Notes under the pieces: model-generated | Databases searched by the model: none | What the model saw: only the letters and a program-made list of their open reading frames with translations | What the model was told of the DNA's origin: nothing | Program-made: the position numbers and the translations under genes | Part shown: piece by piece, positions 4,099-22,217 of the stretch | Position numbering within the stretch: position 1 is the stretch's first letter | Layout of the letters: each line of letters opens with the position of its first letter | Source: Anaerolinea sp. | GTDB taxonomy: Bacteria; Chloroflexota; Anaerolineae; Aggregatilineales; Phototrophicaceae | DNA length: 38,993 nucleotides | NCBI GenBank assembly: GCA_014879865.1 | Contig: JACSRG010000481.1 | Coordinates: forward strand, 1 to 38,993 | Direction of reading: 5' to 3'

Positions 4099-6045
4099 AT
4101 GAGAAGTATCGCTAACCTATTTTCCGAATTGCCTCTCTCACGTAAACGGGTAGGATTTCGTGTTTCCCTTCTGACCCTGCTCCTACTGCTGATCGTCGCC
4201 AGTCGTGCCTACCGGCTTGACGTGGATGTGCTGGATGTGCAAACCGACGAGTCGTGGTCAGTGTGGCAGACGTTCGGCAGTGTGAACGACATTCTGCGTT
4301 GGACGCCCTACGATTGGACACCCCTGTACTACCTGACGCTCGGCGCATGGCGCGAACTGACCAACCTCCATCCCGTGACTTTGCGCTGGCTGTCGGTGCT
4401 GGCATTCGCGGTCGGATGCAGCGCCATGTATCGCGTCGGACGGCGGTTGTACGGCGCGGGCGTCGTGCCGATGCTGGCGTATGCCGCCTTCGCCTACATG
4501 GTCTTCCTCAGCACGGAGATGCGCGGCTATGCCTTGCTGCTGGCGTTTTACCCGCTGGCGATCTGGTCGATGCTGCGCTACTTCCACCGCCCGACGCTGT
4601 CGCGCGCGCTGCCGCTGGGAATCCTGCTGGCGGCGATGTTCTACACCTCGCTGACGAGCGCCGCCGCTACCGGCGCACTGGTGCTGTTCAGCGCGTTTCT
4701 GTACGGCACGCGCATCTGGCGCTGGATCGTCCCGGCGGTGATCGCCGTCGTGCTCGCCCTGCCGGAAATCCTCAACAAGGCGGCGATTATCACCACGCGG
4801 ATGCAGGCGACGATCAACATCCCGCTGCTGCCGTTCGGCGAGGCGCTGGTCGATCTGTACGGCGCGCATACCGGCTACCCGCTGCTGATCTGGATCGGCT
4901 TGGCGGTGGTGGCGGGGGTGATGCTGGTGATAAACTTTGTACGGGTACGACGCACGTTCTCTAATAATACAAATCGCATTAAAGACCCGCTTATTGACCC
5001 CATCCCCTCCCCGAATTCGGGGAGGGGCGTAAACGGGAGTCTGCTTGCGCCTTCCCCTGAATTCGGGGGAAGGGAAGTTGGTATGCCACTTGAGCGCATC
5101 GCCCTCGGCTTGTTCGTGTGGGCGCTCATCCCGATTGCGCTGTACATCACCAACCCGACCTTCGGCTTCTTCAATCACCGTTACTCGTGGTGGGTGATGA
5201 TCGGCGTGGCGCTGTTCCTCGGTGCGGGCTTGAGCCGCCTGCCGCGCGTCGGTCAGGGGGCAGTCGCGCTGCTGTTGATCACGTTCGCCTTCGTGCCGAT
5301 CCCGCTGACCAAGTATCAGCTTGGCGATCCGCCGCTTGCCCCGGCGTTCGAGTGGCTGGCGGGCAAGGCGCGCCCCGACGATGCTGTGCTGATCGACCCC
5401 GCGTGCGGCTGCTGGTCGCCGGAACGCTTCGCCTACCTGACGCGCGTTTACTTCCCGATGGGCTTGCGCTTCGTCAGCGAACCGGGCGACGAGCAGCGGT
5501 TGTGGTACTTGACCGGGGCAGTCGGCGCGACCGAAAGCGTCGCCGCTGAGGTCAATCGGGGGCGCGTGGCGGGCGAGTTTTTCGGTCCGCCCGAAGCCTT
5601 GATCCGCGTGTATGAAGCGCCGCCCGATCCGGTCGGAGAAGTCTACAGCAATGGGATGCGTTTTCACGGCGCGGAGATCGCCGGGGCGAACGGCTTTCCG
5701 ATCTTCCACGAGGGCGAACCGCTCACGCTGCGCGTGTGGTGGACAACCGATCAACCGCTGCCACAAGATTACAGCATCGGCGTGTTCCTGTTTGACAGTG
5801 CTGGCAATCTCGTCTTACAGGAGGACAGCGCGCCGCGCACCACGCCGCCGCAAACGTCGATGTGGCAGACCGGGACAATCTACATGGAAGAGCGCACGCT
5901 CACTCTGCCGATCCCGTCCGGGCGCGGCGTGTATCGCCTGATGCTGGCGCTCTACTGGTACGGCGATCCGGTGCGCCTGACCGCGCCGGGAGTCGATGCG
6001 GATGGGCTGCGTTTCCTGACGAACGTCTACATATCGGCTTGGTAA
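4099..6045 (+). CDS. polytopic membrane glycosyltransferase-like protein (GT39/PMT-like)
   Basis: ORF 648 aa; N-terminal TM then LDVQTDESWSVWQ motif, many TM helices, soluble C-terminal beta-rich domain. Contains an in-frame repeat insert at about 5001-5077. Confidence 0.75.
   Translation: MRSIANLFSELPLSRKRVGFRVSLLTLLLLLIVASRAYRLDVDVLDVQTDESWSVWQTFGSVNDILRWTPYDWTPLYYLTLGAWRELTNLHPVTLRWLSVLAFAVGCSAMYRVGRRLYGAGVVPMLAYAAFAYMVFLSTEMRGYALLLAFYPLAIWSMLRYFHRPTLSRALPLGILLAAMFYTSLTSAAATGALVLFSAFLYGTRIWRWIVPAVIAVVLALPEILNKAAIITTRMQATINIPLLPFGEALVDLYGAHTGYPLLIWIGLAVVAGVMLVINFVRVRRTFSNNTNRIKDPLIDPIPSPNSGRGVNGSLLAPSPEFGGREVGMPLERIALGLFVWALIPIALYITNPTFGFFNHRYSWWVMIGVALFLGAGLSRLPRVGQGAVALLLITFAFVPIPLTKYQLGDPPLAPAFEWLAGKARPDDAVLIDPACGCWSPERFAYLTRVYFPMGLRFVSEPGDEQRLWYLTGAVGATESVAAEVNRGRVAGEFFGPPEALIRVYEAPPDPVGEVYSNGMRFHGAEIAGANGFPIFHEGEPLTLRVWWTTDQPLPQDYSIGVFLFDSAGNLVLQEDSAPRTTPPQTSMWQTGTIYMEERTLTLPIPSGRGVYRLMLALYWYGDPVRLTAPGVDADGLRFLTNVYISAW
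5004..5073. repeat. modular palindromic element, copy 1, inside a CDS
   Basis: CCCCTCCCCGAATTCGGGGAGGGG (5004-5027, perfect palindrome), centre CGTAAACGGGAGTCTGCTTGCG, then CCTTCCCCTGAATTCGGGGGAAGG (5050-5073, one mismatch). Confidence 0.85.
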
Positions 6046-19234: not shown

Positions 19235-20158
19235 TCAGGCAGCCCCCGACAATACCAGACGGAACTCGGCGGCATCGAGGTGCAGTCGTGCGCTCAGCGC
19301 CCGCGCCAGTGCCACCGCGATAGCGGCGCGAATTCCGACGAACATTCCGAGCAGCACGAACGGAAAGGCGATCAGTTCCAGCACCGGGGCGATGTTCAGG
19401 CGGGCGGAGAGGCTCGGCACGATGAGAAACGCGCCGAGCCACATCAACCCATAGGCGCAACCTTGCAGCAGCAGGAAGCTGATCAGCGCCCATGCCCGCG
19501 CTTCGGCACGGCTGCGGACGATCAGCGGCACGAGCAAACCGATCAGGTTGGCGTCGGCGAGGGAATACACGTCGTCTACGTAGAACGCCAGCGCAATCAG
19601 CAGCAGTATGACGATCAAGAACAGCAGCGAACAATTCAATGGCTCCGCGGGAAGGATAAACGGGAAACGCGCCACGTAGCTCCCGGTCATCAGCGGCGCG
19701 ACAAACAGCGTGGTGGTGAGCAGACCGCTCCGCACAGACCAGACGCGCCGCATGGGTCTGCCGCTATAGGGATGTCTCAGGGCTTGAGTCGCGCTTGCCA
19801 ATGCCCACAGCGCCGCGAACAAGCCGTCCGGCGTGACTGCGAGCAGATCGAGCATCTGATTTGCCCGTTCGTCCGCAATCGCATCGGCGACGCGCAGCGT
19901 GACGCCCATCCCGACGACCGTCGCGTAGAGCAGGACGCCGAACGGGACGATAATCGCGGCGGCATAGCAGATGACCCCATAGAAATCGGGAAGCGCTCCG
20001 ACGAGAGCGCAGCCAATGCCCCCTAGCGCGATCCAGCCCCACAACGGCAGGGCGAAAGCGGGTTTGTGCTCCGCTTCGCGCTGCGCCTGCGCGCGCCGAA
20101 ACAGGGGGTGCTCCAGCGGCGGCATGAACAGCGCACGCCACAAGCGAAAGGCGATCAT
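19235..20158 (-). CDS. ABC-2-like polytopic membrane protein A1
   Basis: MIAFRLWRALFMPPLEHPLF start; VADAIADERANQMLDLLAVTPDG; ATGA overlap with the upstream gene. Confidence 0.68.
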   Translation of the reverse strand: MIAFRLWRALFMPPLEHPLFRRAQAQREAEHKPAFALPLWGWIALGGIGCALVGALPDFYGVICYAAAIIVPFGVLLYATVVGMGVTLRVADAIADERANQMLDLLAVTPDGLFAALWALASATQALRHPYSGRPMRRVWSVRSGLLTTTLFVAPLMTGSYVARFPFILPAEPLNCSLLFLIVILLLIALAFYVDDVYSLADANLIGLLVPLIVRSRAEARAWALISFLLLQGCAYGLMWLGAFLIVPSLSARLNIAPVLELIAFPFVLLGMFVGIRAAIAVALARALSARLHLDAAEFRLVLSGAA

Positions 20159-21432
20159 CCCGGCGGCAGCCCCCACGCGACCACGTCCGGCGCGCCGAAC
20201 GCGGGGAACAAACCTTCGCTCAACGCGGTGTAGACGCCCGTTTCGACCTCCAGTGCCAGCAGCAAATAGCTCCGTCCATCCTCTCTCACATCACCGCCGA
20301 AGCCGAGGTAGCGTCCATCCGGCGACCATGACAGGCGCGGCGGATTCGGCGTGGCGTCCGGCGTGCTGTAGCCGCAGTACGCGGTGATCTCGTTCGTCGA
20401 GAGGTCGAGGACGTGAATCATAGCATTTCCTGTGTTGGCGAGTGGGTCAGCGCCCGTGACTTCGGTCACCCAGAAAGCGATCCGCTGGCTATCGGGCGAC
20501 CATGCCAGATCGCCGACGGCGATCCCATTGATGCGCGCCGCGCCATACGCCGCCGCGAAGTTTGTCCACTGAACGGGTTCCATCATACCCGGTTGAATGC
20601 CGAAGAGTTCACCAGTGATACGCGCATCGTCGCCGACAGGTTCAACGTAGGCAAGCCATGTGCCATCCGGCGACCAGTGCTGCGTGTTGTAATAGGCGCG
20701 GTCTTCGCCGAGCAGCACCCGCTCACGCGGTTCGGCAAGGTTGACCAGTGTGCGCGAGAAGGTGTCGCCGTCCTGCTGGAGCAGCACCGCGTAGCGTCCA
20801 CCGGGCTGCACGGAGACGACGCCGGGAACGGTCAGGTATTCGCGCACATCCGCGTCGAGCGGGCGCAGATAGGCGGAACGGGCAGGCGTCCAGATCAAGT
20901 ACATCTCGTCCGACCACCATTCGACATCGGCGGCGTAGGCGGTGATCAAGGTGCGTTCTGTTCCGTTTAAGCGCATCCGGTTATAGGCGTTGGTCGCGTC
21001 GTTGAAGTAGGTGATCCAGCGCGCGTCGGGCGAGAGGCGGCAGTTGGTCGTACACGGGTTGGAATCGGGCAGGGGGTAACGCCGGTCGGTCGCTACATCA
21101 TAAACCCAGAGCGCGGTGCTGTCGAAATACGTCAAGATGATGCCGTTGGCGTCGAATTCGGCGGTGCGCGCTTGAATCCCTACGGGCGGACACACCCGGA
21201 TGATGTCCCCGTCCATGACGGTGTCGGCATGGGCGACGGCGCTCAAACATATGATCATCATGAGACAAATCCACGCACGAGCGACCCTGCGTCCGTTCAC
21301 GAAACCCCCATCCCAACCTTCCCCCGAATCCGGGGGAAGGCGCAAACACGAGTCTGCTTGCGCCCCTCCTGTCCAAGCGAAGCTTGGCATTCGGGGAGGG
21401 GTCAAGAAGCAAGAGATCAACTTGTTATTCAT
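20155..21432 (-). CDS. exported PD40/TolB-like beta-propeller protein
   Basis: Repeats HWSPDGTWLAYV, LAWSPDSQRIAFW, LSWSPDGRYLGFG; signal-like RRVARAWICLMMIICLSAVAHA. ATG 21432 overlaps the upstream stop as ATGA; alternative start GTG 21300. Confidence 0.75.
   Translation of the reverse strand: MNNKLISCFLTPPRMPSFAWTGGAQADSCLRLPPDSGEGWDGGFVNGRRVARAWICLMMIICLSAVAHADTVMDGDIIRVCPPVGIQARTAEFDANGIILTYFDSTALWVYDVATDRRYPLPDSNPCTTNCRLSPDARWITYFNDATNAYNRMRLNGTERTLITAYAADVEWWSDEMYLIWTPARSAYLRPLDADVREYLTVPGVVSVQPGGRYAVLLQQDGDTFSRTLVNLAEPRERVLLGEDRAYYNTQHWSPDGTWLAYVEPVGDDARITGELFGIQPGMMEPVQWTNFAAAYGAARINGIAVGDLAWSPDSQRIAFWVTEVTGADPLANTGNAMIHVLDLSTNEITAYCGYSTPDATPNPPRLSWSPDGRYLGFGGDVREDGRSYLLLALEVETGVYTALSEGLFPAFGAPDVVAWGLPPG
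21305..21402. repeat. modular palindromic element, copy 2
   Basis: CCTTCCCCCGAATCCGGGGGAAGG (21317-21340), centre CGCAAACACGAGTCTGCTTGCG, then CCCCTCC...GGGGAGGGG with nested CCAAGC-gaa-GCTTGG (21373-21387). Confidence 0.85.
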
Positions 21433-22217
21433 CCGTATAACTTCTTCCGCAAGGTTTCCTCCGGCGTGGGCGGTTTTTCCGTCCATTCGACCCGCCAGAC
21501 GTGAATCTGACTGAGGCGCTCATCTGCGCCGCCGTCGGCAACGTACAGCCGATCTCCGTGCAGCAGGCAGTCCATCGGGCGATGGAGCAGATTATCCGCG
21601 AGATCGGTCAGCATGGCGCTCGTCGGGCGTTCTTCCTCCACCAGCAGGTCGAAGAAGTGGGCGGCGTAGATCACGCGCGTGTCGTAGTCGTAGATTTCGC
21701 CGTCGGCGTCGGTTTGCGGTGCAGGGAGCGCGTAGGCGAAGCGAATCCGGCGGCAGATCAGGAATAGGTTCGGGTGGATCAATTCGGTTTCGGCGAGGAC
21801 ATAGCTTTCTGCGATGCCGATCAACTGCGGCAGGTCGAGCTTAAGCCGCTGCGCCAGCGCGACTTTATCGGCGATGGACAGCGGCAGCACAAGATCGCCG
21901 ACCCGTTCGGGGAGGCGCTGCCCGCGATGGCGCGCCCCGGCGTAATTCAGCGCCATGCAGTGCCAGCCCGCCTGCGGCTTGATCACGTCGTCAGGCAGTG
22001 CCAGCGGCACGACGCTGGTGTTCATCCCGTTCGACTCGTCAACCGATGCAATTAGCGTTCCGTCCGCTGCGAAGGCGTGCTGCGCCAACCAGCAGTCCTC
22101 CGCATAGATTTCTTCGACGTACAGAGCGCCGTCCGGCGTCACGCCGAGAATGCTGCAATCGCCGTTGTGATGAAGAGGGCGCGATGTTTCATAATGAAAG
22201 ATCGGCGGATGCATCAA
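21429..22217 (-). CDS. uncharacterised 262-aa protein, beta-propeller-like C-terminus
   Basis: Long ORF at the head of the coupled operon; ...MDCLLHGDRLYVADGGADERLSQIHVWRV... No family firmly recognised. Confidence 0.65.
   Translation of the reverse strand: MMHPPIFHYETSRPLHHNGDCSILGVTPDGALYVEEIYAEDCWLAQHAFAADGTLIASVDESNGMNTSVVPLALPDDVIKPQAGWHCMALNYAGARHRGQRLPERVGDLVLPLSIADKVALAQRLKLDLPQLIGIAESYVLAETELIHPNLFLICRRIRFAYALPAPQTDADGEIYDYDTRVIYAAHFFDLLVEEERPTSAMLTDLADNLLHRPMDCLLHGDRLYVADGGADERLSQIHVWRVEWTEKPPTPEETLRKKLYG

Follow-up and report, generated by a model that had tools for sequence, protein, structure and literature searches.

We found that an open reading frame for a membrane protein in a member of the Phototrophicaceae (Chloroflexota) is interrupted, without loss of frame, by one copy of a modular palindromic repeat, which is very probably a MITE/REP-like mobile element of the foldback type, non-autonomous, amplified in one bacterial family and tolerated in protein loops. 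The window, that is, the whole 38,993-nt stretch of DNA analysed, corresponds to contig C882 within a 6.42-Mb assembly of 937 contigs.

An in-frame insertion between two hydrophobic helices

The host ORF (4099–6045, + strand) is an uninterrupted frame encoding a 648-residue membrane protein whose N-terminal half is PMT_2-like (GT-C type), with a match to PMT_2 (E = 3e-5) slightly under the curated cut-off. Its frame at 4996–5073 (78 nt, exactly 26 codons) reads DPIPSPNSGRGVNGSLLAPSPEFGGR followed by EVG, and hydropathy analysis places the element between hydrophobic helices at residues 263–281 and 334–352, as an earlier note on this DNA had proposed. The basic RVRR immediately ahead suggests that the insert lies on the cytoplasmic side, and the loop may well be exposed in the folded protein. 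A search by sequence found no solved structure resembling the window protein.

Homologs were detected in 42 genomes in a protein search of 101 relatives. The insert is absent from all 29 homologs that were aligned (34–44% identity), with alignment picking up in frame on either side of an in-frame gap, as the earlier note had predicted for orthologs. The site corresponds in these homologs to a turn of mostly 3–6 residues, versus about 45–52 in the window protein; two of them (L010 and L020) have longer loops of sequence unrelated to the element. The extra loop, which had been attributed to the element in its entirety, is so only in part: the 26 codons at 4996–5073 are element, but some 13–20 residues upstream, encoded by an AT-rich stretch at 4960–4995 (+ strand; about TFSNNTNRIKDPLI) that lies outside the repeat consensus, match nothing in the repeat family and are likewise missing from homologs.

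A modular foldback element

The window copy comprises a left end at 4996–5003 (GACCCCAT, a short form of GACCCCACCCCCGA); arm B, a perfect 24-bp palindrome, at 5004–5027 (CCCCTCCCCGAATTCGGGGAGGGG); a linker at 5028–5049 on the + strand (CGTAAACGGGAGTCTGCTTGCG), whose consensus, CGCAAACACGAGTCTGCTTGCG, forms a short hairpin of its own; arm A, a 24-bp palindrome with one mismatch, at 5050–5073 (CCTTCCCCTGAATTCGGGGGAAGG); and a shortened right end at 5074–5085 (GAAGTTGG..., compared by eye with TTGGGAAGGGGGTTTCGTTAACTTGG of full copies). From the 60 regions that we read, the consensus is AACCCCCTTCCCAA–CCTTCCCCCGAATTCGGGGGAAGG (A)–CGCAAACACGAGTCTGCTTGCG (linker)–CCCCTCCCCGAATTCGGGGAGGGG (B)–TCGGGGGTGGGGTCA, and in full copies a hairpin linker of 22 bp joins the two 24-bp palindromes, with C-rich ends that are complementary to one another on the outside. 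This consensus folds into a single long foldback, beyond what shuffles give (DNA parameters, z −4.75), in which its ends pair as terminal inverted repeats; the ORFs that cross the element are those of the host gene. Module order varies, A-linker-B and B-linker-A both being found, with the window copy of the latter type; a nested hairpin (GCCAAGCTTCGCTTGGACGG) occurs within some arms, and single-arm copies are common. A second copy in the window, at 21306–21399, is A-linker-B with an extra nested hairpin in arm B and likely lies in the 5′ leader of the ORF at 20155–21486 (− strand). The description of the sequence as a modular palindromic element therefore holds for a dispersed family with its modules in varying order.

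Patchy amplification within one bacterial family

In this genome, CCCCGAATTCGGGG occurs at 94 sites with up to one mismatch versus 0 for the reversed control, and a 105-nt query yielded 79 matching pieces in blastn, so that the palindromic arms of the window copy are not due to chance. Moreover, the linker motif GAGTCTGCTTGCGCC is present in 20 exact copies. Nine relatives of the same family have 47, 64, 42, 31, 27, 21, 20, 15 and 10 palindromes (up to one mismatch) and the remaining relatives 0–4. Because the reversed control, 0 in this genome, reaches 14–35 in some relatives, including three copy-rich ones, the palindrome count alone is no proof of the element there; elements were also read directly in G053, G043 and others. 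Among about 400 genomes sampled across the phylum, the exact palindrome is amplified only in this genome, with 0–2 occurrences in the others. The element family is thus amplified patchily within one bacterial family and near-absent elsewhere in the phylum. No matches to the element were found in plasmid and phage collections, and a search of Rfam gave sub-threshold matches only, with no family above its threshold.

Many contigs of this genome start or stop inside the repeat (for example L094, L095, L110, L123 and L147), the assembly breaking there, and the true copy number is therefore probably higher than counted. Near elements we also observed a second palindrome family, GGGGCATGATATATCATGCCCC (at L093, L096, L112, L130 and L141), with seven occurrences in 247 kb and none for the reversed control.

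Copies inside genes keep the reading frame

Placement was scored for copies away from the contig ends of the fragmented assembly, of which this genome has 27. One, the palindrome at L093:1513, lies in a long ORF without repeat flanks and was discarded as chance. Five of the 26 remaining copies are intragenic, all in frame: in the window gene; in genes for a DUF6056 membrane protein (L113), a PMT_2 protein (L135) and a SAM methyltransferase (L120, directly ahead of the GxGxG segment VLDVGCGNG), whose homologs lack the extra residues; and in AddB (L122), with a net gain of only about six residues. The copies at window position 21317, L108:3525 and L289 were rejected as intragenic cases, the element being upstream of the likely true start. 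In the better assembly of G053, three of 14 copies are intragenic and in frame, in PriA immediately ahead of Walker A, in a GT9-WecG fusion and in a PMT_2 protein. G043 has two among 18 scored places, in PriA at the same position as in G053 and in a GH31 alpha-glucosidase (about 56 extra residues), and G026 no convincing case among about 20.

Altogether, about ten of 77 placements are intragenic, all in frame, and represent nine independent events; this count of coding versus intergenic copies and the genome-wide palindrome search had both been proposed in the earlier note, and both came out in favour of the element. The rest are mostly intergenic, many of them near gene ends and often between convergent genes. 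For the eight cases in this genome and G053, all frame-keeping, chance would give (1/3)^8 = 1.5e-4, a rough scale that overstates the surprise because scoring a case as intragenic requires an open frame. With coding fractions assumed, placement at random in a genome that is mostly coding would put far more than the observed eight of 40 copies within coding sequence. We saw no gene split by the element in these two genomes among neighbouring pairs with a Pfam match, same-strand neighbours being of different families or having a family on one side only.

Other repeats were observed at some of these genes. The insert of L135 is nested, with outer arms (GGCATGAGGGTGT...) that enclose the element, and the GT9-WecG fusion of G053 (L279:1763–3778, − strand) also contains LQSSAVSCQLSEAGSQLNTKKPKTENRKLITNNSELGTRNSELDSALSTQHSAL, a further stretch that looks like a repeat but does not resemble the palindromic element. 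In-frame inserts of other kinds, C-rich and repeat-like, are present in AddB of G004 (L179) and in a PMT_2 homolog of G019 (L245) (PHPSTSSPLNGEG; LTPQPPLQTRPHPPTPSPNMERG). In a methyltransferase of G081 (L184), the loop that holds the element in L120 is occupied by a different, cloverleaf-like foldback, also in frame and with GCCCTCACCCTG/CAGGGTGAGGGC as its outer arms; such a recurrence in another family suggests that loops of this kind are hit repeatedly.

Peptides encoded by the element and selection after insertion

A 70-nt core of the element is free of stop codons in all six frames, as are 2.9% of shuffles, or 4.3% of those keeping the palindromic arms; the window copy has stops in two other frames. 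The encoded peptides are rich in Pro, Gly, Ser and Arg, and copies are read in differing frames and strands, as PSPNSGRG, PSPEFGGR, PLPEFGEG, PPRIRGG or PPRMPSFAWTGG. For annotation, PSPNSGRG, SPEFGGR, PLPEFGEG and PPRIRGG motifs in proteins of this lineage are best taken as element inserts and not domains. Selection of the element for readability in six frames, so that it survives inside genes, which together with unrelated foldbacks at the same loops would make it a general and continuing source of new disordered loops, is an idea that we put forward only tentatively and regard as doubtful; the absence of stops may instead be a by-product of palindromes rich in C+G.

G053 and G043 share the insertion in PriA, a gene in which they are 83–88% identical around the insert. 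Selection on the host gene can here be estimated apart from that on the insert, and this pair stands in for the window gene, whose closest homologs are only about 44% identical. The two inserts, of 144 and 270 nt, are each a multiple of three. In the flank before the insert dS is 0.70 and dN 0.11 (dN/dS 0.16), in that after it 0.55 and 0.079 (dN/dS 0.14), and over the 48 alignable codons of the insert 0.17 and 0.21 (dN/dS about 1.2). The low ratios in the flanks and that of about 1.2 in the insert therefore show a host gene kept under purifying selection and an inserted peptide that changes freely, evolving about neutrally. The lower dS inside the insert is based on a small number of sites and could stem from the choice of codons that were alignable.

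Origin and spread of the element

The reading that we favour is that of a mobile element without a protein of its own. A full copy is an overall inverted repeat in which each half is a 24-bp palindrome, with a hairpin linker and pairing C-rich ends. Because the element encodes no protein, its mobility would have to depend on a trans-acting enzyme, and we infer spread of this kind, by transposition, from its copy number, dispersal and patchiness. Insertions that persist are mostly intergenic, and a minority would be maintained within genes where a stop-free core, a net length that fits the frame and a peptide placed at a short-loop site coincide, a pattern that would reflect tolerance rather than benefit.

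One candidate for the trans-acting enzyme would be a RAYT (HUH, Y1 transposase), in which case the repeats would be REP elements and the phenomenon ordinary REP/BIME biology. This genome has two good Y1_Tnp genes, and the overall behaviour of the element resembles that of intragenic REPs (PMC3733652), yet neither a GTAG nor a CGTC tag is present on the arms in the consensus, and no palindrome lies within the surrounding 2–3.5 kb of either Y1_Tnp gene of this genome. Moreover, in the copy-rich G026, G005, G038 and G043 the Y1_Tnp matches are all weak and fall within long ORFs, whereas G041 has 11 good Y1_Tnp copies and zero elements; Y1_Tnp genes occur in 71 of 101 genomes, and element number shows no visible link to them. 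We therefore regard movement by a RAYT as unlikely.

It is quite unlikely that the palindromes are instead kept for a role in RNA or DNA, as mRNA hairpins, terminators or stabilisers, or protein-binding sites, the intragenic copies being regulatory and incidentally translated. Such a role would fit the strong hairpins expected in transcripts (window segment z −3.6), the frequent location of intergenic copies near gene ends and between convergent genes, and the seemingly lower synonymous differences in the PriA insert than in its flanks, over just 48 aligned codons. It is harder to reconcile with a copy number that ranges patchily from 0–4 to 94 among close relatives, with variable module order and orientation, and with the lack of any Rfam family above threshold.

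A loop native to a protein subfamily and merely resembling the repeat, for which the longer, unrelated loops of L010 and L020 might be adduced, is highly improbable given that the sequence matches a genome-wide repeat and that every homolog is without the loop sequence. Equally hard to credit is a repeat misjoined into the gene in a fragmented assembly with many contigs ending in the repeat, since the copy lies mid-contig with its reading frame intact, its best other match in this genome is just 93% identical, and the independent assemblies of G053 and G043 have the same kind of insertion.

Comparison with known repeat systems

The earlier note had likened the in-frame insertion to Rickettsia palindromic elements (RPEs; Ogata 2000, 2002), the best-known case of its kind, which are summarised in PMC10969869 as short palindromes lying in frame in unrelated protein genes whose function is apparently kept. 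Compared by description, the likeness stands: homologs lack the insert, and the placements that are intragenic (about 10 of 77) are in frame. Rickettsia is not alone in this, however, since in-frame intragenic REPs have been published for several other bacteria (PMC3733652). Unlike RPEs, which encode one conserved peptide, the present element is read in several frames and in both orientations, occurs in another host lineage and mostly in intergenic copies, and has a nested architecture of 24-bp palindromes around a hairpin linker.

Intragenic GTAG/CGTC REPs (Di Nocera 2013; PMC3733652) are pairs that encode 20–30 residues in ORFs of several bacteria, often of DNA repair genes. The present element is similarly mostly intergenic, forms modular dimers and has hit repair genes, here AddB and PriA. 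It differs from these tagged stem-loops of 20–40 bp in that its arms are loopless 24-bp palindromes centred on GAATTC without a tag, the CGTC string occurring in the nested-hairpin variant only, and in that we found no linked RAYT for it.

With prokaryotic MITEs, as portrayed in a 2024 review (PMC10969869) that deems MITE-driven protein evolution conceivable in other prokaryotes, the element has in common that it is non-coding, about 100 bp long, with inverted-repeat ends and patchy amplification; unlike them, each of its halves is itself a palindrome. No description of this element family was found in the open literature, and subscription journals may hold one. The small dispersed repeats of cyanobacteria, reportedly described by Elhai in 2008 as very small, folding and with modular variants, are likened to it by description, as very small folding modular repeats. 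As a system, the family is clear-cut and relatively young, and its copies are numerous and spread over several genera. Thus, palindromes in frame within genes are already known, and what is new in the present case is that they carry no tags and keep to no fixed peptide frame.
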